NCBI GenBank assembly: GCA_002862125.1
Contig: PHSP01000002.1
Location: 124,001 to 188,000 of the forward strand
Reading direction: 5' to 3'
Source: Methylobacter sp. KS41
GTDB lineage: Bacteria; Pseudomonadota; Gammaproteobacteria; Methylococcales; Methylomonadaceae
Length of the DNA stretch: 64,000 bases
Below are positions 43,686-56,171 of the stretch, in pieces. The position numbers and the translations under genes are program-made. The notes under the pieces are model-generated. The model made no database searches. It was not told where the DNA came from and worked only from the letters and a program-made list of their open reading frames with translations. Position 1 is the stretch's first letter. Each line of letters starts with the position of its first letter.

Positions 43686-44884
43686 GTTCGTGAGATAATG
43701 ATGGAAATATTATTGCCGCCAAAGGCAAATGAATTGCTCTGACAATGGTTAACACGTCTTCCTAAGGTCTGGCCCGGTGTTACATAATTCAATGAAGGCA
43801 AAGCGCCGTCCGGCGCATCATCATTAATATTCGGTATTAATAAGCCCTGCGCATCGTCTTGCGCCAATAACAACCAGCAAATGCCCATTTCCATAGCGGC
43901 GGCCGCGCCAAGGGCATGGCCGGTCATGCCCTTGGTTGAGCTGACGGCGACCTCGCCGCCAAACACCTGCCATATTGCATTGCTTTCCATCGCATCGTTC
44001 AAAGGTGTAGCGGTGCCATGCAGATTAATATAATCAATTTCTCCGGGCTGCATCCGTGCATCCGTCAAAGCCATTTCCATGGCTGCGATCACTGCGCCGC
44101 CGTCAGGGTCGGGCGCGGAAAAGTGATAGGCGTCACTGCTCGCGCCAATGCCTTCGAGCGACACGGGTCCTGCTTCCTTGCTTAATACAAACAGGCTTGC
44201 CGCCTCGGCTAAATTGATGCCATCCCGGTGCGAGCCAAAAGGTTTGCACAACCCGGCCGATAAGGACTCCAGCGCTTCAAACCCGGACATCGTAAACTGG
44301 CATAAGCTATCGGCACCGCCGACAATCACCGCATCACAAATATCCAGCGCAATCAGACGGCGGGCCGAAGCAAACGCCCTGCCGCTGGATGAGCAGGCTG
44401 TCGATACTGTATAGGCCGGACCTTTCAGTCCCAGGACAGATGCAAGAAAATCAGCGCCGCCGGCAAACTGCTGCTGTTTATAATGAAACTTTTCCGGTTT
44501 TGGCCGGCTTCTGGCGACTTCCGCCAGAGCCAGTTCTGTATTTCTGAGGCCGGATGTGCTGGTCCCGATGACCACGCCGATCCGGTCAACGCCATAGTTC
44601 CTGATCATGCTGTCGATTGTTGGCTTGATTTGCTCTGACGCAGCTAAGAGTAACCGGCTGTTTCTGCAATCATATACGCTATATTTATCATCGATTCCGG
44701 GCAGCTCGGCCTGGACAGCTCCGGCATAATACGGATGTCCGGGAGAATACTCATCGGTCCTGATCAAACCAGTACGGTGTCCGGCCTGCAAATTGTGCAA
44801 CATCTCGCCGCCATTATTTCCGGAGGCTGAGAGGATGCCGAGGTCATTGAGAAATAGCTTCAAACCAGTCAGGATTCGCGGCAC
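43682..44884 (-). CDS. Beta-ketoacyl-ACP synthase (ApeO-like), KS-2
   Basis: 400 residues with the full catalytic set: Cys164 in VSTACSSSGRA, His289 in INLHGTAT and His323 in GMTGHALGAAAA. The remaining NSFAFGGNN loop is also present. It is shorter at the N-terminus than FabF and resembles the smaller ketosynthase of aryl-polyene clusters. Start is GTG 44884, overlapping the halogenase end by 16 bases; a TTG seven codons later would also fit. Two different complete ketosynthases suggest one initiating condensation and one for elongation. Confidence 0.85.
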   Translation of the reverse strand: MPRILTGLKLFLNDLGILSASGNNGGEMLHNLQAGHRTGLIRTDEYSPGHPYYAGAVQAELPGIDDKYSVYDCRNSRLLLAASEQIKPTIDSMIRNYGVDRIGVVIGTSTSGLRNTELALAEVARSRPKPEKFHYKQQQFAGGADFLASVLGLKGPAYTVSTACSSSGRAFASARRLIALDICDAVIVGGADSLCQFTMSGFEALESLSAGLCKPFGSHRDGINLAEAASLFVLSKEAGPVSLEGIGASSDAYHFSAPDPDGGAVIAAMEMALTDARMQPGEIDYINLHGTATPLNDAMESNAIWQVFGGEVAVSSTKGMTGHALGAAAAMEMGICWLLLAQDDAQGLLIPNINDDAPDGALPSLNYVTPGQTLGRRVNHCQSNSFAFGGNNISIIISRT

Positions 44885-46116
44885 AACTTTACCAGCGTCT
44901 TCAGGCGAAGGCTGTGGTTTTTGACATAGGGATTGTTTTCGTCCCAGACATAGCCAGCCAGAATCGAACAGATCATCTGTTTAATGTTATTTTTTTGTTC
45001 AACATTCTTCAAATGTTGGTAGAACACCACGTCCTGAAAGCTGCCGTCATACCAAGAGTTGACGAAGGTGCGGAATGTTTCCACGCCTTTTTGCAAAGGA
45101 TCGCTAAAATCACTTTGCCAGTCCGCAGGGAGTCCGTTAAATTGCCGGTCAAGGACATCAGCGGCCAAACTTGCCGATTTCATCGCGATTGTGACGCCGG
45201 AGGAAAATACCGGATCAAGAAATTCTCCGGCATTGCCTAGCAAAGCATAACCATTGCCATACAAGTTCTTGACGTTAGCGCTGTATCCGCGGATGCTGTT
45301 GACAGGAGTGTCGTATATTGCGTTTTTCAAAAGGCCGGACAAGCCCGGTTCCAAAGCAACGAATTGCTGTAATACGGTTAGCCGGTCAGTTCCGGGAATA
45401 TTGAGCACGTCTTCTTTACCCACTATGCCTAGACTGCAACGGCCGTTACTGAAAGGAATCAACCAATACCAGACATCGTTTAGTCCGGGATGAACAATAA
45501 TCCGGATTTTATTGCGATCGTAGCTTGAGTCATCTATCCGGTCTTCCAGATGAGTAAAGACCGCTTGCCGTACCGGAAAGTCCGAAGGCTTTTCGAGATC
45601 CAGCAAACGCGGCAATACCCGGCCGAAGCCGCTGGCATCCAGGACGAAATCAGCTGTCAGCTGATAACTCTGTTCCGTTGTGGAATCCCGGATAGTCAGG
45701 CATGGTTTATCGTGGCTGAAATCAGCCGCAATCACTTCCTGCCGCCAGCGAATTTGAACGCCCATCCGCTGTGCTTCATCGGCCAGCAGCGCATCAAAAC
45801 GGTCGCGCTGTACCTGGTAGGTTGAATCAAAGCCATCGGTAAATTTATCGGCGAAACAAAATTCGGAATGTTTGTCGTTATGTAAAAAGGCCGCGCCATT
45901 TTTTAATTGAAATCCTGCCGCCTTAACTGCATCCAGCATTCCGGCCTGTTCAATAATTTCCATGCACTGCGGCAGCAAACTTTCGCCAATACTGAAGCGG
46001 GGAAAAGCATCCCGCTCCACAATGATGGCCGGATAACCCTTGTTGCTCAGTAACGCCCCGGCAATACTGCCTGCAGGTCCAGCGCCAATAATAATGACGT
46101 TTCCTCTATCTGCCAT
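44869..46116 (-). CDS. FAD-dependent halogenase-family flavoprotein
   Basis: 415 residues. The FAD-binding GAGPAGS (11-17) opens the protein, followed by SIGESLLPQCMEII (about 42-55). Two halogenase hallmarks are present: a lysine in GFQLKNGAAF (Lys72), at the place of the lysine that carries hypohalite to the substrate, and the WXWXIP motif as WYWLIP (216-221), which blocks monooxygenase chemistry. DASGFGRVLPRLL and GNAGEFLDPVFSSGVTIAMKSA complete the fold. The closest known types act on carrier-bound pyrroles and phenols (PltA-like). Beside a predicted pyrrolyl-carrier pathway, a chlorinated or brominated pyrrole is the natural guess. Related proteins with no proven halogenation also occur in pigment clusters. 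First gene of the minus-strand operon. Confidence 0.8.
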   Translation of the reverse strand: MADRGNVIIIGAGPAGSIAGALLSNKGYPAIIVERDAFPRFSIGESLLPQCMEIIEQAGMLDAVKAAGFQLKNGAAFLHNDKHSEFCFADKFTDGFDSTYQVQRDRFDALLADEAQRMGVQIRWRQEVIAADFSHDKPCLTIRDSTTEQSYQLTADFVLDASGFGRVLPRLLDLEKPSDFPVRQAVFTHLEDRIDDSSYDRNKIRIIVHPGLNDVWYWLIPFSNGRCSLGIVGKEDVLNIPGTDRLTVLQQFVALEPGLSGLLKNAIYDTPVNSIRGYSANVKNLYGNGYALLGNAGEFLDPVFSSGVTIAMKSASLAADVLDRQFNGLPADWQSDFSDPLQKGVETFRTFVNSWYDGSFQDVVFYQHLKNVEQKNNIKQMICSILAGYVWDENNPYVKNHSLRLKTLVKLCRES

Positions 46117-46276
46117 AAATCTAAGCTGCCTGTCGTTCTATTTTCATTGTGGTAAATACTTTTAAAAAATCTCATCACAGTCCCCGCCTGCAAATTATCC
46201 GGTTTATACCGATTGATAATGACTATTGTGGCCTTGATCAGCTATCATTGAGCGTTTAGTATACCTTACAATAACC
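46117..46276. promoter_or_regulatory. Divergent promoter region of the biosynthetic cluster
   Basis: This 160-base region separates the halogenase operon from the carrier-protein operon and must hold both promoters. A TATACC at about 46259 and TTGATC at about 46237 are possible boxes for the plus operon but are spaced too widely to be firm. No ribosome site of note precedes the carrier-protein ATG. Confidence 0.4.
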
Positions 46277-46516
46277 ATGAAAAAGAAACTACGCGATTTT
46301 ATCTTTCACGAGCTTGTTTTTGTTGCTGAACCGGATCAATTCAGTGATGATGACGATCTGCTGGAAGCAGGTCTGGACAGCATGGGCATTATGCGCCTGA
46401 TTATGTTTATCGAGAATGAATACGGTGTAACCCTCCCCGATACGGAGATTGAACCGGACAATGTGCAATCCTTCAACGCACTGGCGCATTGGATTTTACG
46501 GCATCAAAACGGATGA
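46277..46516 (+). CDS. Acyl/peptidyl carrier protein
   Basis: 79 residues, an acidic four-helix carrier domain. The phosphopantetheine serine is Ser35 in EAGLDSMGIMRL. No phosphopantetheinyl transferase gene is nearby, so a genomic one must serve. As the first gene of the operon with a stand-alone adenylation enzyme and an acyl-CoA-dehydrogenase-like oxidase, it is the natural counterpart of PltL/PigG-type carriers that hold proline during its oxidation to pyrrole. It could also carry the chain for the ketosynthases. The stop overlaps the next gene by ATGA. Confidence 0.88.
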   Translation: MKKKLRDFIFHELVFVAEPDQFSDDDDLLEAGLDSMGIMRLIMFIENEYGVTLPDTEIEPDNVQSFNALAHWILRHQNG

Positions 46517-47844
46517 CTATAAAAAAAGAAGATATTCTGGAAAGACTGAATCCGGCCGATAGTTTCACTCTTGCAATGGATGAGGAAATCCGCAGGGACG
46601 GTTTGGCCGGCAGTTACGGCTGTTTCGCTCTGGAGCTTGACAAAACACCGGATATAGCCGTTCTGCAAGGGCGGATTGCAGAGTTCAGTCTCCGCTTTCC
46701 AGTTGCACAGGCCAGTCTGCAACAAATCGGCCGGCGCTTTTACTGGTGCAGGCGAAACGATCCGCCCCGGCTGTTTTTTCAGCATCATTGCCCCGGTAAC
46801 CAGAATGAAGCGGATTTCCAGCAACACACGATCGACCGTATTATTAATCACAAACAGTTAAGGGAAACTACCGCTCCCATTGAATTTCATCTGTTGACGG
46901 GTCCGGCAAAGCATATTTTTTTCACCCGTTGGCTGCATCCTTTCTGCGATGCCCGCGGTGCCGACCTGATCCTGAAATATCTGTGCATAGCCGATGAAGC
47001 TCAACGCAGGCAATTCGGTCTGCCTGAATCCGGGCCGTTAGTGCTTGAGCAATTGGCTAAATACCGCTGGTGGCAAAAGATCGCTTTGCTGTTGAAAGGC
47101 AAGCGTTATATCGCCAAGCTGGACAGCCTGGAAAGTATTCAGCCGTTTCCCGGCAAACCGGCTCCGCAGCGGCTTAACTACAGCATTCAAAGACTGAGCG
47201 AAGCAGATACCGGACAGGTTGTCAAACTGGCAAGAAAACAGGCCGGACTGACCGGCACCAGCCTTTATTATATCGGCTGCCTGATGCGCGCTCTTGACAA
47301 AATGGCTGTTGACAGCCAAGGTGACGCCTATTGCGCGCCTTATGCCTTCAATTTGCGCAAACAACGGGCCTTGACTCCGATGACAGGCAATCATCTTTGC
47401 GCCCTGTTTGCCCAGGCGCCCCGCGATATTGTTCAAAACCGGCAAAAACTGTTTGACCATCTGAAACAGCAAAATGCCCAGGTCATTCGCCAGCAACTGG
47501 ACTACGCTTTCCTGCCGCTGATGTGGGCCGGGAGCTGGCTGTCCCTAGCCGAATACGGCAAGACCTTGCGCCAGGCTTTCGGCTCGGGGAAGGAGCGCAG
47601 TTCATTCTGGTTTTCCGATGTAGGCCGGGTAGACATTCCTGAGAACAGCTTTCCCGGTGCTGAAATTACCGGCGTATTTCATGTCTGCCAGGTAACCTCG
47701 CCGCCCGCGCTGGCTTTTCTGAGCTGTATCCACCGGAACCGGTTAACCCTGAGCTACAACTTTGTCGAACCGGTCAGTAATCCAGCGCAAATAGAGAAAT
47801 TGCAGCAATTAATGCTGGCGGAATTACTGGAGGAGACAGAATGA
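46513..47844 (+). CDS. Condensation-like (C-domain superfamily) protein
   Basis: 443 residues from ATG 46513, which overlaps the carrier stop. The sequence is diverged. Features of the CoA-dependent acyltransferase/condensation fold are WLHPFCDARGADLIL (about 141-155), which matches HHXXXDG with the second His (His142) and the Asp (Asp146) kept but the first His and adjoining Gly changed, and FWFSDVGRVD with a downstream FHVCQVTSPPAL, akin to the DFGWG-type latch. It could join the carrier-bound acyl group to an amine or alcohol, or hand it to the ketosynthases. I do not recognise a characterised orthologue. GGAGGAG near its end serves the next gene. Confidence 0.6.
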   Translation: MTIKKEDILERLNPADSFTLAMDEEIRRDGLAGSYGCFALELDKTPDIAVLQGRIAEFSLRFPVAQASLQQIGRRFYWCRRNDPPRLFFQHHCPGNQNEADFQQHTIDRIINHKQLRETTAPIEFHLLTGPAKHIFFTRWLHPFCDARGADLILKYLCIADEAQRRQFGLPESGPLVLEQLAKYRWWQKIALLLKGKRYIAKLDSLESIQPFPGKPAPQRLNYSIQRLSEADTGQVVKLARKQAGLTGTSLYYIGCLMRALDKMAVDSQGDAYCAPYAFNLRKQRALTPMTGNHLCALFAQAPRDIVQNRQKLFDHLKQQNAQVIRQQLDYAFLPLMWAGSWLSLAEYGKTLRQAFGSGKERSSFWFSDVGRVDIPENSFPGAEITGVFHVCQVTSPPALAFLSCIHRNRLTLSYNFVEPVSNPAQIEKLQQLMLAELLEETE

Positions 47845-49358
47845 GCGCCTCGGTAAATCAGGTGGAGCTTGCCGTTAATAACCGGGCAAATCCTTACAAT
47901 GAAACTCATATCCAGTCTTTGCTTTCTGCATTTAACCGGCAATGCCAAACCGCACCGGACAACCTTGCCTTTATTGAAGGCGGCCGACAGTTCAGTTATT
48001 GTCAGCTCAGGCAGCGGGCCTCTCAGCTTAGCGCCGGTTTGTTAACTCGGCAGAAGCCTTGCCGGCGTGTCGTCATAGCCGTGGATCGCGGTATTGATGC
48101 CGCTGCCGCCATTTTGGCTGTGTTGGGCGCCGGCGCTTGTTATATTCCTCTCGACATCAAAAACCCGGCCCCTCGTTTGAATTACATCATCAACGATGCC
48201 CACCCTCAATATATTATCGGCAAAGGACACTGTCCGGATTGGCTGGAAACCCCTGAGCTCTGGCTGGATATTGAGCAGTTGGATTGCTCACAACTAAGTA
48301 CCTGTTGGCCGGCGGAAGTAAGCTCCGAAGCGCTGGCAGCAATACTCTATACCTCCGGCTCCACCGGCGTACCCAAAGGAGTCGCTTTAAGTCACAGAGC
48401 GATGCGCAATTTCTCCGGCTGGGCGTCAAACACTTTCCGGATCAGCCGCAACGACCGCATCGCTTCATTGGCTCCATTTCATTTCGATCTGTCCGTTTTC
48501 GATTTATTCAGCAGCTTAAGTTGCGGCGCTTCTGTTCTATTTGTGCCGGCCGGATTGACTCTCTCGCCTAGCCGGCTGACTGCATGGCTATCTGAACAGC
48601 GCATCAGCGTTTTTTATACGGTGCCGTCATTGCTTGGGTTTATCGCCTTGAAAGGCTCTTTATCCTCCATTTCGCTGCCCGATCTGAAAACTGTGCTTTT
48701 TGCCGGCGAGGTGTTTCCAACTCAGCAGTTGAAAAAGCTGTGCGGGTTATTGCCGGATGTTAATTTTTACAACCTGTACGGACCCACTGAAACCAATGTC
48801 TGTTGCTATTGGCCGGTGGATCGCGAGCGCCTGAAATCCGGCCAACCCATCCCGATCGGCTACCCGGCCTGCGGCGCTGTTCTGCAAATCGACGACGAAA
48901 CCAACGAATTAGCGGTCAAAAGCGCCAGCAATCTATCCGGCTACTGGAAACAAGGCCAACTGATCAACGCATTAACGCCTGATGGCTATTATCATACCGG
49001 CGACAAGGTTTCGCTTAATGAACAAGGTGAATACTGTTATCACGGCCGTCTCGACCGGATGCTGAAATGCTCCGGCTACCGGGTCGAACCGGCGGAAATA
49101 GAATCGGCATTATTACAATGTCCTGAAGTGATTAACTGTGCCGTCATCGGCATTATCGACAGCGCTTGCGGTCAACGTCCCGCCGCCGCCGTTGTCCTGA
49201 AAAACGGCGCAAAACTGGACACGGTAGTCAAATCGGCCAAACAAAAATTACCGGCCTATATGCAGCCTTGCAAATATATAGAGCTGGAGTCCTTGCCTTA
49301 TTTTAGCAACGGTAAGACCGACTACCTGAAATTGCGCCAACAACTGGAGAAAAACTGA
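47841..49358 (+). CDS. Stand-alone amino acid adenylation enzyme, predicted L-proline-activating
   Basis: 505 residues, with no fused carrier. Core motifs: TSGSTGVPKG (171-180), NLYGPTETN (about 311-319), YHTGDKVSL, GRLDRMLKCSGYRVEPAEIE and the final catalytic lysine in NGKTD (Lys492). Reading the binding-pocket positions by alignment to the gramicidin phenylalanine domain gives D-L-F-S-L-A-L-V-C, close to the D-L-L-Y-L-A-L-V-C I recall for prolyl-AMP ligases of pyrrole pathways (PltF, PigI, RedM). It would load proline on the carrier protein two genes upstream. It overlaps the previous gene by ATGA and has a strong GGAGGAG ribosome site. Confidence 0.85.
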   Translation: MSASVNQVELAVNNRANPYNETHIQSLLSAFNRQCQTAPDNLAFIEGGRQFSYCQLRQRASQLSAGLLTRQKPCRRVVIAVDRGIDAAAAILAVLGAGACYIPLDIKNPAPRLNYIINDAHPQYIIGKGHCPDWLETPELWLDIEQLDCSQLSTCWPAEVSSEALAAILYTSGSTGVPKGVALSHRAMRNFSGWASNTFRISRNDRIASLAPFHFDLSVFDLFSSLSCGASVLFVPAGLTLSPSRLTAWLSEQRISVFYTVPSLLGFIALKGSLSSISLPDLKTVLFAGEVFPTQQLKKLCGLLPDVNFYNLYGPTETNVCCYWPVDRERLKSGQPIPIGYPACGAVLQIDDETNELAVKSASNLSGYWKQGQLINALTPDGYYHTGDKVSLNEQGEYCYHGRLDRMLKCSGYRVEPAEIESALLQCPEVINCAVIGIIDSACGQRPAAAVVLKNGAKLDTVVKSAKQKLPAYMQPCKYIELESLPYFSNGKTDYLKLRQQLEKN

Positions 49359-50435
49359 ATGGACATCGATAATCTGCCCGGTGCGGGAGATGCCGCTGCC
49401 TCAAGGCATCGCTTGCAATACTGTGCGAACCAGGGTTTGTTTAGGCATGCCGTCCCGGCGGATAACGGCGGTTACGGCAACCATTTTACCGATCTGGTTA
49501 ACGCGCATGAAACACTGGGCAAGGCCGGGAAGGATACCGGCTTAATGCTTTCCATCAACGCTCATCTATGGGGCGCTTTGTTTCCAATCCTGAAATACGG
49601 CGATACCCGGCAGCAAAAAATCTATTTGAGCGGCTTAGTAACCGGCGGCCTGATAGGCGGCCATGCCATTACCGAACCGCAGGCCGGCTCCGATATTAAC
49701 GCATTGGCAATGACCGCCGTGCAAAGCGGCGACGGGTTTTTACTGAACGGGCATAAGCGCTTCATTACCAATACTCCTATCGCCGATCTGCTGATTGTAT
49801 ACGCCCGTCTGGACAATAAATTATCCGCTTTCATCGTGCATAAGGATGATCAAGGCGCTGGCTTTCTTGATACGCCCCAGATAACGGGTTGCCGGAGCGC
49901 TACGATGGGCGATGTCATACTTGAAAATTGCCTGATTCCAGCTGTCCGGCAATTGGGCAAAACCGGTGCAGGCAATATGATGATCCAACAGGCGCTTGAG
50001 CTGGAAAGGGCGTTTATTTTTGCCGGCATCTGCGGCCTCATGGACTGGCAGCTGGAAACCGTCATCAAGTTCAGCCGCGAACGCAAAGTCAACGACATTC
50101 ACCTGGGAAAATACCAGGCCGTCAGCCACAAAATTGCCGAAATGAAATTAAGGCTCGACACGATCAGGCTCTGGGTCAGCGAATGCGCGCGTCTCAAAGA
50201 CGGCAACAAGCGCATCACTCTGGCCAGCGCCCAAACCAAATTATTCGCCGCCGAAGCGTTTCTGCAATCCAGCCTGGACGCAGTCCACATACTCGGCAGC
50301 AACGGCCTCACAAAAGCCAGCCTGATGGCGGATCTGGTCATCGACGCGCTCGCCAGCCGCCTGTTTTCCGGCTCCTCGGAAATCCAGAAAAATATCATCG
50401 CCGCCTTGCTTGGAACCGGCGATGGCTATAGATAA
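49359..50435 (+). CDS. Acyl-CoA-dehydrogenase-like flavoprotein, predicted prolyl-carrier dehydrogenase
   Basis: 358 residues of the acyl-CoA dehydrogenase fold. AVPADNGGYGNHF, HAITEPQAGSDINALAMTA (about 98-116) and GHKRFITNTPIADLLIVYAR form the FAD and substrate region; LFSGSSEIQKNIIA ends the domain. The glutamate normally found in YEGT near the C-terminus is replaced (FSGSS), so the base is probably the Glu in ELERAFIFAGICG (about 211-223), as in isovaleryl-CoA and prolyl-carrier dehydrogenases. PltE/PigA-type enzymes oxidise prolyl-S-carrier to pyrrolyl-2-carbonyl-S-carrier. It starts directly after the adenylation gene's stop. Confidence 0.82.
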   Translation: MDIDNLPGAGDAAASRHRLQYCANQGLFRHAVPADNGGYGNHFTDLVNAHETLGKAGKDTGLMLSINAHLWGALFPILKYGDTRQQKIYLSGLVTGGLIGGHAITEPQAGSDINALAMTAVQSGDGFLLNGHKRFITNTPIADLLIVYARLDNKLSAFIVHKDDQGAGFLDTPQITGCRSATMGDVILENCLIPAVRQLGKTGAGNMMIQQALELERAFIFAGICGLMDWQLETVIKFSRERKVNDIHLGKYQAVSHKIAEMKLRLDTIRLWVSECARLKDGNKRITLASAQTKLFAAEAFLQSSLDAVHILGSNGLTKASLMADLVIDALASRLFSGSSEIQKNIIAALLGTGDGYR

Positions 50436-50637: not shown

Positions 50638-52089
50638 TCACAGCCGCTTAGCTGTCGAGAAGTGCAAAGCCCTCTCTTTAAGCGCAAGCGCAGCATCGTG
50701 TACAGCTTCCGATAGAGTAGGGCGTGCGTGAATGGTTCTTGCCAAGTCTTCACTGCTAGCGGAAAACTCCATAGCCAGTACAGCTTCAGCTATTAGTTCA
50801 GATGCTTGCGTCCCGATAATATGAACACCGAGAATCTTGTCGTTTGCCGCGGAAGTGATGATTTTAACCATACCTTCAGTTTTTCCCATCGCCAGCGCCC
50901 GGACGGTTGCCGATAGCGGATAAACGCCAATTTTAACGGCTTCCCCCATGGCGCGCAGAGCCTGTTCGGTATGGCCTACCCAGGCAATTTCGGGTTCCGT
51001 ATAAATCACGCAGGGAAGGTTGTCGTAGTTAATCGGGTTATGGAATCCGGCAATGAGTTCAGCAACGAATACGCCTTCCTCTATGCCTTTATGCGCCAAC
51101 ATAGGCCCTAGCAAGGTCAAGTCGCCTAAGGCATAAACTCCGGGCAGGTTGGTGCGGCAATTATCATCGACGTAGACATAGCCGTTTTCATCGAGCAATA
51201 AATCTGCTTCTGGCGCTGCCAGATCTCCGGTATTAGCTTTTTGACCGCAGGCAACGATTAGCTTATCAACGCGCAAGCTGTGAGTGCCTTCCTGATCTTG
51301 ATAGTCTACCGTGACTTTTTTGTTGCCCTTTTTTGCGGAAATAACTCGAGCGCCCAAACGCAAATCCAGTCCCTGCTGACTATAAATGCGGTAAGCCTCG
51401 CCTGAAACTTGCTGGTCGAGCAAGGATAAAAAGTTTTCTTGCGCTTCCAGCAGTATGGTTTCAGAACCGAGTCTATTCCAGATGCTGGCCAGTTCAAGTC
51501 CTACTACGCCAGCTCCGATAATGGCTAACTTTTTGGGGACTGCGTCAAGATTTAAAGCGGCAGTGGAATCAATAATATATTCGTTGTCTATTGGGGCGCA
51601 AGGTAAATTATTGGGGGTTGAGCCGGTAGCCAGAATAATATGTTTGGCGTCAAGTATTGAATGAGCTCTGGGTTCAAGGCCGATAATCTCCACCTGCCGC
51701 GCATTTAGTAAGCGTCCCTTTGCCTGAACATGGTCTATCTTATGGTGCGCGAACAAATCAGACATTTTATGGCTGATTTCATCGACAATTTTGTCTTTGC
51801 GCTGGATCATTTCGGGTAAGTCTACTGACAGCGCTTCAACGTGAATACCGTGTTTTTCTATCTCGTGATTCAGCTGATGATAGATTTTTGCTGATTCCAG
51901 TAAGGTCATGGCGGCGATGCCGCCGGTATTGAGATGGTAGCCGCCTAATCGACGCTGGCTTTTTTTATCGAACCAGTTATCAATGCAGGCGGTTTTTAGT
52001 CCGAGCTGCGCGCAACGAATAGCGCTGGCGTAACCAGCTGGCCCGGCACCGATTACTATGACATCGTAGTGAGTTTGCTTTTTTGGCAT
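50638..52089 (-). CDS. Dihydrolipoyl-dehydrogenase-like protein lacking the redox cysteines and catalytic histidine
   Basis: 483 residues that align end to end with proteobacterial E3 (lipoamide dehydrogenase). FAD-binding GAGPAGY (14-20), NAD-binding IIGAGVVGLELAS and the dimer domain with ending TLSEAVHDAALAL are kept. The redox site is not: where E3 has GGTCLNVGCIPSK, this protein has GGYHLNTGGIAAM (49-61), so the two cysteines are His52 and Gly57. The interface HAHPTLSE motif reads HARPTLSE, so the catalytic base His is Arg456, though the partner Glu461 remains. As an E3 it should be inactive. It is the third gene of sucA-sucB-lpd, five bases after sucB, so it is presumably still made with the 2-oxoglutarate dehydrogenase complex; any working E3 must come from elsewhere. 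Confidence 0.9.
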   Translation of the reverse strand: MPKKQTHYDVIVIGAGPAGYASAIRCAQLGLKTACIDNWFDKKSQRRLGGYHLNTGGIAAMTLLESAKIYHQLNHEIEKHGIHVEALSVDLPEMIQRKDKIVDEISHKMSDLFAHHKIDHVQAKGRLLNARQVEIIGLEPRAHSILDAKHIILATGSTPNNLPCAPIDNEYIIDSTAALNLDAVPKKLAIIGAGVVGLELASIWNRLGSETILLEAQENFLSLLDQQVSGEAYRIYSQQGLDLRLGARVISAKKGNKKVTVDYQDQEGTHSLRVDKLIVACGQKANTGDLAAPEADLLLDENGYVYVDDNCRTNLPGVYALGDLTLLGPMLAHKGIEEGVFVAELIAGFHNPINYDNLPCVIYTEPEIAWVGHTEQALRAMGEAVKIGVYPLSATVRALAMGKTEGMVKIITSAANDKILGVHIIGTQASELIAEAVLAMEFSASSEDLARTIHARPTLSEAVHDAALALKERALHFSTAKRL

Positions 52090-52093
52090 AGTA

Positions 52094-53341
52094 TTAAATA
52101 TTAAGCAGTAGATGAGCGGGAGCTTCCAGGCATTCTTTGATGGTGACTAAAAATTGTACTGCTTCGCGGCCATCAACCAGACGGTGGTCGTATGACAGGG
52201 CAAGATACATGATTGGCCTGATAACAATTTGGCCGTTTTCAACAACAGGCCGTTCCTTGATGGCATGCATGCCTAAAATAGCGCATTGAGGGGGATTAAG
52301 TATGGGAGTCGACAGCATTGAACCAAACACGCCGCCGTTAGTAATGGTAAACGTTCCGCCCTTTAGGTCGTCGTAGGTTAATGTACCTGCTCTTGCCTTT
52401 TCTCCAAAACCGGCAATGCTTTTTTCAATGCCGGCAAAATCGAGTTGATCCGCATCATGCAAAACCGGCACAATCAAACCGCGCGGCGTACTGACGGCAA
52501 TGCCAAGGTCGTAGTAGCCATGATAAATGATGTCGTTATCATCAATGGAGGCATTGATGGCAGGGAAATGTTTTAATGCCTCAATCGAAGCTTTGACAAA
52601 AAACGACATAAAGCCGAGTTTGACAGCATGTTTTTGCTCAAATCTGACTTTGTATTGGTTACGAAGATCGATGACGCTTTGCATGTTCACTTCGTTGAAT
52701 GTAGTTAACATGGCCGCATTTTGTTGCGCTTGTAACAGACGTTCCGCAACTTTAGCTCTTAAGCGTGTCATCGCAACGCGTTGTTCAGGACGCAGATTTG
52801 AGGCGACCGTTGTCGATTCGATGGGTTTAGCCGTTTCCGGCTTGGCAACAGTTTCCGTGCTTTGTAAAGACACAATGTTTTGCGATTTTACTGCGTTTGC
52901 CGGTGTTTGTTTGCTAAGATGAGCCAACACGTCTGATTTAGTCAGACGGCCGCTTTTACCTGAACCTTTTATGTCTGAAGGATCCAAAGTATTCTCGTGG
53001 ATCAGTCGGCGCACTGAAGGACTTAACGGGATATCTTCATCGTCATGCTCAGGTGTTGTAACCGATAGTGTTTTATTTTCGGCGGCTTGGCTCTCTTGAG
53101 CCGCTTCTGGTTCCAGTAAAGCCAACAACTCACCGCCGGTAACTATAGCGCCGTTTTCCTTGAGTATCTGACTAAGCACGCCCGAGTCAGGCGCGGTAAC
53201 TTCAAGCACTACTTTATCTGTTTCAAGATCAACGAGGTTTTCGTTCTTGTTGACAAATTCACCGGCTTGTTTATGCCAGGTGATCAACGTTGCATCGGAA
53301 ACAGATTCGGGTAGATTGGGAACTAGTACTTCAATGCTCAT
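52094..53341 (-). CDS. sucB: Dihydrolipoyllysine-residue succinyltransferase (E2 of 2-oxoglutarate dehydrogenase)
   Basis: 415 residues. Domains in order: a lipoyl domain (about 1-76) with the lipoylated lysine in [11 protein letters not shown], a peripheral E1/E3-binding domain (about 106-145, [32 protein letters not shown]), then the catalytic domain with the active [15 protein letters not shown] (about 386-400). It forms the core of the complex and moves succinyl groups to CoA. All sites look intact, including the E3-binding domain, unlike the E3-like neighbour. It lies one base from sucA. Confidence 0.95.
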
Positions 53342-53342
53342 G

Positions 53343-56171
53343 TTATTTTCCTGAAGAGACGCCGTATAAGGCGGATTGAACGACAGCTTTTTGTTGTTCT
53401 ATATGAACGTGGAAATTCCCGACAGCAGGCGCTGCCGATGCTTCACGTCCGGCATAGGTGACGTTGATATGGGCTTGTACAATGTCGGTAAAGTGATGCT
53501 TGGATTGATACCAGGCACCTTGATTTTTTGGCTCTTCCTGACACCATATAAAATCTTCCAAATGAGGATATTTAGCTATTTCCGTTTTAAGTAATTTATC
53601 GGGGAAAGGATAAAGCTGTTCAAGACGTGCAATAGCAACATGTTTAAGGTTATCCTGACGACGCGCTTCCAGTAAGTCGTAGTAGACTTTGCCGGCACAT
53701 AAAATAAGACGAGTAACTTTTTTGGGATTAATGTCGTCTTGCTCGCCGATGACGGACTGGAATTGTCCGTTTGTCAGATCTTCCAATGTCGATACTGCGA
53801 ATTTATGCCGCAACAGACTTTTGGGGCTCATTATGATGAGTGGTTTTCGATATGGGCGTATTAATTGGCGGCGCAACAAATGGAATATTTGTGCCGGCGT
53901 CGTTGGGTTGCAGACCTGGATATTGTGTTCAGCACAGAGCTGAAGATAGCGCTCCAGTCTGGCTGATGAGTGTTCAGGGCCTTGACCTTCGAAACCATGC
54001 GGCAGCAACATGACTAATCCGCACAACCGTCCCCATTTGGTTTCGCCGGAACTGATAAATTGATCAATAACTACTTGAGCGCCATTGGCGAAATCGCCAA
54101 ATTGCGCTTCCCAAATCACAAGTGTATTCGGCATTGTCGTACTGTAGCCGTATTCAAAGCCTAGCACACCAGCTTCGGACAACAGGGAGTCATAAATTTG
54201 AGCCCGGCCCTGATCCTTGTCGAGATGTTTAATCGGTATGTAGGTTTTATTATTTATTTGATTATGCAATACGGCGTGACGGTGAACAAATGTACCTCGC
54301 CCTACATCTTGACCCGTCAAGCGGACATGGTATTTTTCCATAAGGAGGCTGGCATAAGCCAGATTTTCAGCAAACCCCCAATCCAATGGCAAAGCCCCCG
54401 CAGCCATTTTGCGGCGGTTATCCATAACTTTAGCGACTCTGGGATGTAATTCGAAATCAGCGGGGAGCCGCTGCATTCTGTCATTACAATAACGCAATTG
54501 GTCCAATGAAATGGCAGTATTACAAACCGCATCCCAGCTTTTATTCTGGTACTGATTCCATTGGTTGGTGTATGAATAGCTGGAATTCTCTAAAACAGGT
54601 CTCGATACAACCTGACCCGCTTCAAGCAGTTTTTGATAATCCTGTTCCATTTTTACGGATTGTTCCGCGTTAATAATCCCGTCGTTGATGAGTTTTTGAG
54701 CATAAAGTTTCCGCGTGGTTTTGTGTTTGCGGATTTTTTTATACATGATGGGCTGGGTAGTCGCTGGCTCGTCGGCTTCGTTATGTCCAAGACGTCGATA
54801 GCAGATAAGATCTATGACGACATCCTTATTGAAAGTCATCCGGTAATCAAGGGCGAGTTTTGTTACAAATATAACTGCTTCCGGATCATCACCGTTGACA
54901 TGAAAAACAGGTGCCTGGATCATGCCGGCAACATCGGTGCAATACAAAGTGGAGCGAGCATCCAACGGGTTGCTGGTGGTAAAACCAATTTGATTGTTGA
55001 TTACGATATGTATTGTCCCTCCCGTGGAAAAAGCGCGGGTTTGTGACATATTCAGGGTTTCCATGACGATACCTTGACCGGAAAAGGCTGCATCTCCGTG
55101 AATTAAAACAGGAATTACGGTGCTTATTCCAGTTTTTCCGGCTCGATCCTGACGCGCCTTAACCGAACCTTCAACAACCGGATTGATGATTTCCAAATGT
55201 GAAGGGTTAAATGCAAGTGTTAAATGCACCGGGCCGCCGGGCGTGGCAATATCAGATGAAAAACCCATATGATACTTTACATCACCTGAGCTGACACCAG
55301 GCGATGGCGTATACGTGCCGGCAAATTCATCAAATAAACTGGCGGGGCTTTTGCCCAGGATGTTGACCAATACATTTAAACGGCCCCGATGCGCCATACC
55401 GATGACAATTTCTTTAATGCCTTTATCTCCGGCGCCTTGAATTAATTCATCAAGAATTGGAATCAGAGATTCACCGCCTTCAAGAGAGAAGCGTTTTTGG
55501 CCGACGAATCTATGGTGTAAATGACTTTCTATACCTTCGGCCGCAGTAAGTAATTTTAAAAGCCAGTGTTTTTTAGCGGAGTCGGGTGTTATATTGGATT
55601 TGGAAGTTTCCAGGCGGCTTATCAGCCAGCGTCTAATGTGAGTATCAACGATGTGCATGTACTCAGAGCCGATGCTGCCACAATAAATTTCTTTCAGGTT
55701 GGCAATAATGTCGCGTAAGGGTAATCGATCAACATCGCCGTAAAGTGCGCCGGTATCAAAGAAGGTTTCCATATCCGGTTCGGAAAGGCCGTAATAGGCC
55801 GGATCCATATCCGGGGGAGGGGGGGCTGTTTTTCCTAACGGATTATTGTTGGCAATTTGATGTCCTCGGACCCGGTAATGGTTTATCAGTCGCGAAACAG
55901 CAGCCTGTTTTTTGACGCTTTCTTCAGTAAAGCCCTGTAATTGGGCCAGTCTTCCTTGAGATTTTACTGCAAGTTGTGCAAAGCGTTCTACGACTGGGCT
56001 ATGAGGGGTCTCGTACATAGCGCCATGGTGAATATTTTTGAATTCTTTTTGCCAACTTGGTTCAACAGAATCAGGATCTTCTAAAAACCGTTCATATAGG
56101 TTTTCAATGAAACTGGCGTTGCTGCCTTGTAAGGAAGACGAATCTCGAAAAAGTTTAAGTAGGTTACTCAT
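53343..56171 (-). CDS. sucA: 2-oxoglutarate dehydrogenase E1 component
   Basis: 942 residues, normal length. The N-terminal [27 protein letters not shown] and the [22 protein letters not shown] segments are typical. The thiamine diphosphate region contains [17 protein letters not shown] (about 255-271), [19 protein letters not shown] and [18 protein letters not shown]. It decarboxylates 2-oxoglutarate and passes the succinyl group to SucB. First gene of sucA-sucB-lpd. Type I methanotrophs have often been reported without measurable activity of this complex even where genes exist. Confidence 0.96.

Follow-up and report, generated by a model that had tools for sequence, protein, structure and literature searches.

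A clade-wide E3 variant with an altered redox site in the 2-oxoglutarate dehydrogenase operon of Methylococcales

Can the E3 encoded in a 2-oxoglutarate dehydrogenase (OGDH) operon act as an E3 when its redox cysteines are missing, and what keeps such a gene in place? The question is raised by a gene downstream of sucA and sucB in the window, as we call the whole 64,000-nucleotide stretch of Methylobacter sp. KS41 DNA analysed here (Table 1). The encoded protein is recognised as a dihydrolipoyl dehydrogenase by the NCBIfam model TIGR01350, with a whole-length match of 453.9 bits against a cut-off of 408.8. Its redox loop reads LGGYHLNTGGIAAMTLLES where canonical controls, for example those of loci L113 and L114, have LGGTCLNVGCIPSKALLES; in a longer reading, GGTCLNVGCIPSK of the controls corresponds to GGYHLNTGGIAAM, and the HAHPT of the controls is HARPT. 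The original prediction had read His52 and Gly57 at the redox cysteine sites and Arg456 at the catalytic histidine site. Coordinates and translation bear out all three codons, Arg456 also at the level of the DNA, as well as the replacement of the Lys of CIPSK by Met (M61 of GGYHLNTGGIAAM). The window protein therefore has neither the redox-active CxxxxC disulfide of an E3 nor the catalytic His of HxHPT that acts with a Glu, although that Glu is retained (E461).

The FAD-binding fold expected of an E3 is present, as judged from the motifs and the predicted structure. Of the two nucleotide-binding motifs, both of which had been called intact, the FAD motif is so, with GxGxxG retained at residues 14-19, and the NAD motif is so in part: GxGxxG, E199 and E215 are retained but R283 is replaced by Gln and P285 by Ala. 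The AlphaFold model of the window E3 (pLDDT 85.1, pTM 0.84) matches LpdG over its whole length with a Z score of ∼50, the nearest structures being those from P. fluorescens and P. aeruginosa. Compared with LpdG of the OGDH complex (P. aeruginosa 5u8u, P. fluorescens 1lpf), the window protein shows 47% identity over the whole length of the structural alignment and shares the fold and the FAD and NAD glycine motifs; it differs in lacking both redox cysteines, the loop Lys and the catalytic His, and in having one residue more before GPMLAHK. The model falls below a pLDDT of 50 at residues 328-330 and 454-459, a feature absent from the model of a canonical E3 control (pLDDT 90.7), and we give this contrast little weight because the queries and alignments of the two models differ.

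Table 1. Positions of the genes, codons and motifs of the window that are discussed in the text
Feature	Position	Strand	Remarks
Variant E3 (lpd/lpdG-type) gene	50638..52089	-	483 aa; ATG start; without redox cysteines and catalytic His
His52 codon, first redox Cys site	51934..51936	-	Cys in 0/131 variants, 33/33 controls
Gly57 codon, second redox Cys site	51919..51921	-	Cys in 94/131 variants, 33/33 controls
Met61 codon, Lys site of CxxxxCIPSK loop	51907..51909	-	Lys in 1/131 variants, 33/33 controls
Thr325 codon, one-residue insertion in GD-x-GPMLAHK loop	51115..51117	-	Alignment gap in 33/33 canonical sequences
Arg456 codon, catalytic His site	50722..50724	-	His in 95/131 variants, Arg in 26
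FAD-binding GxGxxG, residues 14-19	52033..52050	-	Intact; in variants G14 and G16 131/131, G19 128/131
NAD-binding GxGxxG, residues 192-197	51499..51516	-	Intact; in variants G192, G194 and G197 131/131
sucB (E2o)	52094..53341	-	NF004309 577 bits, cut-off 449; lipoyl-domain K43, H386xxxD390G and E3-binding domain present
SucB residues 107-148, peripheral-subunit (E3) binding domain region	52898..53023	-	R111, R112 and R132 in 48/48 SucB partners of variants
sucA (E1o)	53343..56171	-	942 aa; NF006914 1349.5 bits, cut-off 764
FAD-dependent oxidoreductase	44869-46116	-	Name from translation
Condensation/acyltransferase-like protein	46489-47844	+	Name from translation
AMP-ligase (adenylation-like) protein	47841-49358	+	Name from translation
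Acyl-CoA dehydrogenase-like protein	49359-50435	+	Name from translation

We searched 251 genomes of the order Methylococcales with the E3 query P0001, took the loci and extracted their E3 proteins. After fragments and near-copies were dropped, 164 non-redundant sucAB-type sequences remained, 33 canonical and 131 variant; 130 of the variants belong to Methylococcales by kinship code or NCBI name, and one (L209) is named only as Gammaproteobacteria. The canonical controls have C52, C57, K61 and H456 without exception. In the variants the first Cys has given way to Tyr, His or Phe in 129 of the 131 (Y 63, H 42, F 24, V 1, S 1) and the loop Lys to a hydrophobic residue in 130 (M 53, I 42, L 21, V 13, F 1, with K in 1). 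Position 57 is more mixed (C 94, S 17, G 14, D 3, N 2, T 1), as is position 456 (H 95, R 26, Y 8, F 1, S 1), and both cysteines are absent in 37 variants, the window protein included. Loss at the redox site is thus far beyond chance. The proposed check, whether sucAB-linked copies always carry the substitutions seen in the window, comes out positive within the variant clade for the first Cys and almost always for the Lys, but negative for the second Cys and the His. What the clade has in common is the absence of the first Cys and of Lys; the second Cys was lost in scattered lineages, and Arg456, among variants with a genus code, is limited to the genus of the window (g1) and to g23. Before GPMLAHK, 128/131 variants (T 107, S 11, N 9, A 1) have an extra residue that none of the 33 canonical sequences shows; the three variants that lack it, L107, L115 and L118, are those from families f5, f2 and f6. 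R327 is replaced by Leu in 103/131 variants. The ring residues at position 52 together with the hydrophobic residues at position 61 look like remodelling of the site and not like random decay.

We also considered whether a cysteine elsewhere replaces the lost pair. At columns 26, 35 and 311 the majority of variants have Cys, but so does the majority of canonical sequences, and C164 is found in 79/131 variants and 4/33 controls, so the variants have no new universal Cys. In five variants (L063, L067 and L068 from the genus of the window, L211 and L217) the FAD-binding loop is, in addition, without its LGG. Three others, L116-L118, are divergent, with 46-48% identity to the window protein and long branches; L118, whose position in the tree is unsure, retains Lys61 and the second Cys and has Ser at the first Cys.

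Named carriers of the variant include Methylobacter luteus, M. marinus, M. tundripaludum, Methylovulum psychrotolerans and Crenothrix polyspora, with Methylotuvimicrobium buryatense 5G and Bathymodiolus symbionts as further examples. Since like changes recur in independent genomes and isolates, among them M. luteus, M. marinus, M. tundripaludum and M. buryatense, and no evidence for a sequencing, assembly or annotation artefact was found, we give that explanation practically no credence. By our reading of the search table, f1, the family of the window, has 27 genera, and in 24 of them one or more genomes have a close E3 match. E3 matches were distant without exception in family f4 and in genera g5, g22 and g24, with no such gene beside the sucA loci examined; distant matches alone were likewise seen in f3, in the majority of f6 genomes, in 2/3 f2 genomes and in the single f1 genomes G162, G201, G247 and G250. 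Of the 251 genomes, 248 have SucA. A survey of the class gave matches in 191/369 genomes, and the 27 of the best 30 places that lie outside the order are all canonical; the variant may occur elsewhere outside Methylococcales. In f7 and f8, two families in which canonical E3 occurs, an AMO/pMMO-family match was obtained in 5/7 and 2/2 genomes, respectively, with best E values of 1e-85 to 1e-107, weaker than in 15 of the 16 f1 genomes searched; we claim no tie between the variant and methanotrophy on this basis.

A quick tree of 79 representative sequences, built with the active-site columns excluded, placed the 55 variant representatives on one side of a single branch (SH-aLRT 98) adjoining the canonical E3s of f7 and f8 from the same order. 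On this tree the fewest changes needed are one for the first Cys, two for Lys, nine for the second Cys and nine for the His. The tree suggests an order of events in which the first Cys would early have become a ring residue and Lys a hydrophobic residue, the ancestor of family f1 would next have gained one residue in the loop preceding GPMLAHK, and the second Cys and the His would last have been lost repeatedly. Simultaneous change of the first Cys, the Lys and the loop in one ancestor was ruled out, as L107, L115 and L118 are without the insertion and L118 retains Lys. Among the 26 Arg456 sequences, 25 are without the second Cys, and L016, from genus g23, still has it; because L016 combines the second Cys with Arg456, the comparison suggests that in the lineage of the window His was replaced by Arg before the second Cys was lost.

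The variant gene is under strong purifying selection. Its median dN/dS is 0.075 (range 0.028-0.137; 45 of 51 close pairs with dS 0.1-1.5), compared with 0.086 for sucB (45 pairs), 0.041 for sucA (22 pairs) and 0.064 for canonical E3 (6 of 9 pairs). Among the 154 columns that are invariant in canonical E3s, 100 are retained in 90% or more of 52 variant representatives, with counts by domain of 24/42, 24/42, 23/25 and 29/44, and the FAD and NAD glycine motifs are retained in nearly all variants. Such selection shows that the gene is not decaying, and we reject a pseudogene on account of the low dN/dS. Together with the many independent genomes, it also upholds the earlier view that the divergence is settled and not a sequencing error: the variant E3 is real, old, clade-wide and selected. 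Another reading is that the gene is a relic drifting to loss and kept only by its operon context. It could draw on the distant matches of g5, g22, g24 and f4, none of them beside the sucA loci examined, and on genome G162, where the variant E3 (L156:4138-5588) is split over three reading frames, through either gene breakage or misassembly. We consider a relic very improbable, since dN/dS is as low as that of canonical E3 and sucB, close matches extend over the great majority of f1 genera, and the frame breaks of L156 may stem from assembly.

The setting of the gene is also conserved. In the window sucA is followed directly by sucB, and the variant E3 begins 4 bases downstream of sucB, so that its predicted place in the operon stands and only the spacing, given as five bases, needs correction. 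Where enough DNA was available, sucB lies directly upstream of the E3 in 122/127 variant loci and is missing there in five (4/131 were too short), and canonical E3s of the survey follow sucB in 31/31. The SucB proteins of variant operons keep the lipoyl Lys (47/48, with one gap) and HxxxDG (48/48). In the E3-binding domain of SucB, R112 and R132 are both found in 48/48 partners of variants, compared with 10/13 and 11/13, respectively, where no E3 is linked and 10/22 and 18/22 in partners of canonical E3s; as the variant set is more closely related, this retention is weak support. At two g22 loci, L152 and L153, there is no sucB in the available DNA downstream of sucA.

Two intact E3 genes, with CLNVGCIPSK and either HAHP or HPHP, exist elsewhere in the genome of the window. 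One (L249) is part of an aceE-aceF-lpd operon. The other (L248:5432-6829) is solitary, apart from the pyruvate dehydrogenase operon, and might supply E3 to OGDH. The exact canonical motif was found in 242 of the 251 genomes of the order, using a pattern that also catches other flavoproteins such as L002; of the nine genomes without it three carry the variant (G213, G220 and G234), and the strict pattern may miss an E3 there.

We know of no path by which an E3 without the disulfide could carry out the dithiol half reaction. From its residues and the behaviour of the yeast relative Irc15p, we infer that the window protein is unable to act as an E3. Oxidation of dihydrolipoyl groups on SucB might nevertheless persist, by direct thiol-flavin chemistry or by the remaining Cys where there is one. 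Cys57 and His456 are indeed kept in most variants (94 and 95 of 131), and SucA and SucB look intact. Yet the second Cys and the His have been lost repeatedly while the gene remains, the window E3 has neither, and Irc15p is unreactive with lipoamide in the available text of PMC6296175, so that we rate this possibility as low as that of a relic.

Purifying selection, the place in the operon and the retained E3-binding domain of SucB instead point to a role on the OGDH complex. We favour the view that the variant is a pseudo-E3, that is, a protein of E3 fold descended from the normal E3 of a sucAB operon that would have lost the dithiol-disulfide half reaction and been retained, bound to E2, in a structural or regulatory capacity. 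It would fold as a dimer, bind FAD and occupy the E3-binding domain of SucB, while dihydrolipoyl oxidation would be performed in trans by a real E3 from pyruvate-dehydrogenase-type genes. With pseudo-E3 in the E3 seats, NAD+-linked OGDH flux would be held low; for methanotrophs that draw on 2-oxoglutarate chiefly as a precursor this would be fitting. We judge the chances that a pseudo-E3 served in trans is the correct description to be about even. Against it are the five variant loci without sucB upstream, and a purely structural role alone does not explain the strictly retained NAD-site residues or the ring residues at position 52.

The explanation we rank next is a neofunctionalised flavoenzyme in which NADH would reduce FAD directly and electrons would pass to quinone, O2 or another non-disulfide acceptor, perhaps with the protein docked on OGDH, in the manner of Irc15p or mycobacterial LpdA. 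In its favour are the retained FAD and NAD GxGxxG motifs, E199 and GD motifs and the one-residue insertion common to nearly all variants. Irc15p of Saccharomyces cerevisiae is likewise an E3 relative without both redox cysteines, described in the available text as an FAD dimer that is reduced by NADH and then reacts with menadione and ferricyanide (PMC6296175). It differs in being a duplicate of Lpd1p that is described there as microtubule-associated and that retains the His-Glu pair (PMC6296175), whereas the changed protein here is the operon's own E3, belongs to a bacterial clade and, in the window copy, is without the His. Separate origins of Irc15p and the variant E3 are expected, because the variant branch sits among bacterial sucAB-type E3s. 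Mycobacterial LpdA, as presented in the accessible part of PMC6296175, and SthA are further E3-family flavoproteins, described as missing the His and one or both redox cysteines, that pass NAD(P)H electrons to non-disulfide acceptors. The window protein is not assigned to either type, scoring 231.3 bits against the cut-off of 479 for the LpdA-type quinone dehydrogenase (PRK07845) and 296.6 bits against 465 for the soluble NAD(P) transhydrogenase SthA (PRK05249). To our knowledge, neither mycobacterial LpdA nor SthA is linked to sucAB. Since the window copy is without R283 and P285 of the NAD motif, the FAD loop has lost LGG in 5/131 variants and no acceptor or partner gene was found in the operon, we regard a redirected NADH-dependent flavoenzyme as rather unlikely and place it behind the pseudo-E3.

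The variant had also been put forward as an explanation for the reported lack of OGDH activity in type I methanotrophs. These are described as being without the activity despite having the genes in the available text of PMC5023229 and PMC10602362, the former stating for gammaproteobacterial methanotrophs that the genes are present and activity has never been demonstrated. For M. alcaliphilum 20ZR, the accessible part of PMC5802761 gives pyruvate dehydrogenase activities of 120 and 290 nmol/min/mg (methane and methanol, respectively) and lists OGDH as N.D. with NAD+. A link to the variant fits this undetected OGDH beside active pyruvate dehydrogenase in Methylotuvimicrobium alcaliphilum 20Z, and loss of the sulfur pair in the E3 of the OGDH operon may help to account for an activity that is often not found in methanotrophs. 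Other organisms do not fit so simply. A full oxidative TCA cycle is reported for M. buryatense 5GB1 on methane, with little on methanol (excerpts of PMC6456754 and PMC10602362), a complete cycle for a Methylomonas strain (excerpt of PMC6373157), and no measured OGDH activity for M. capsulatus (excerpt of PMC6288188). Five g2 loci, including those of M. buryatense 5G (L226) and Methylomicrobium sp. wino1 (L222), have the Tyr/Cys/Met form of the variant E3, and f4 has sucAB without a variant-type E3 in the loci examined. We take f4 to be the family that holds Methylococcus. A pseudo-E3 is unlikely to be the cause of absent OGDH in every methanotroph, because M. capsulatus is without the activity although its likely family is without the gene, and as neither it nor M. 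buryatense 5GB1 fits, a block of the OGDH complex by the variant E3 is only possible.

Another route may exist in genus g2, that of M. buryatense. Matches to a fused KorA-type 2-oxoacid oxidoreductase (TIGR03710) scored over the cut-off in 4/4 g2 genomes and in G007, and in 0/33 of the others among the 38 genomes covered, that of the window included. This was the single model with which the 2-oxoglutarate:ferredoxin route was probed; two-subunit forms could escape it, and weak matches below the cut-off were seen in 29 of the 33. Such an oxidoreductase could carry TCA flux in g2. With these cases in mind, we put forward as a tentative proposal, which may well be wrong, that OGDH has been rewired in the family of Methylobacter and Methylotuvimicrobium, the E3 seat holding a dithiol-blind flavoprotein so that NAD+-linked activity would be throttled or electrons would pass to or from another acceptor, and that this would be the molecular cause of the missing activity.

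E3-family proteins without redox cysteines are known; what is unusual here is that the OGDH operon's own E3 is affected, which would add a further case beside yeast Irc15p. Among the matches listed from the open-licence literature, we found no publication on the variant E3 and none on a Cys-less E3 relative inside an OGDH operon; a search for expression of the protein likewise yielded nothing of use. Clade-wide loss of the E3 active site in this operon under purifying selection makes the puzzle of the missing activity directly testable, and in these bacteria, annotations and metabolic models in which the variant gene stands for a functional E3 are probably mistaken. In the window, the OGDH operon is adjoined by a run of genes of biosynthetic look (44869-50435) that were named by reading their translations (Table 1).
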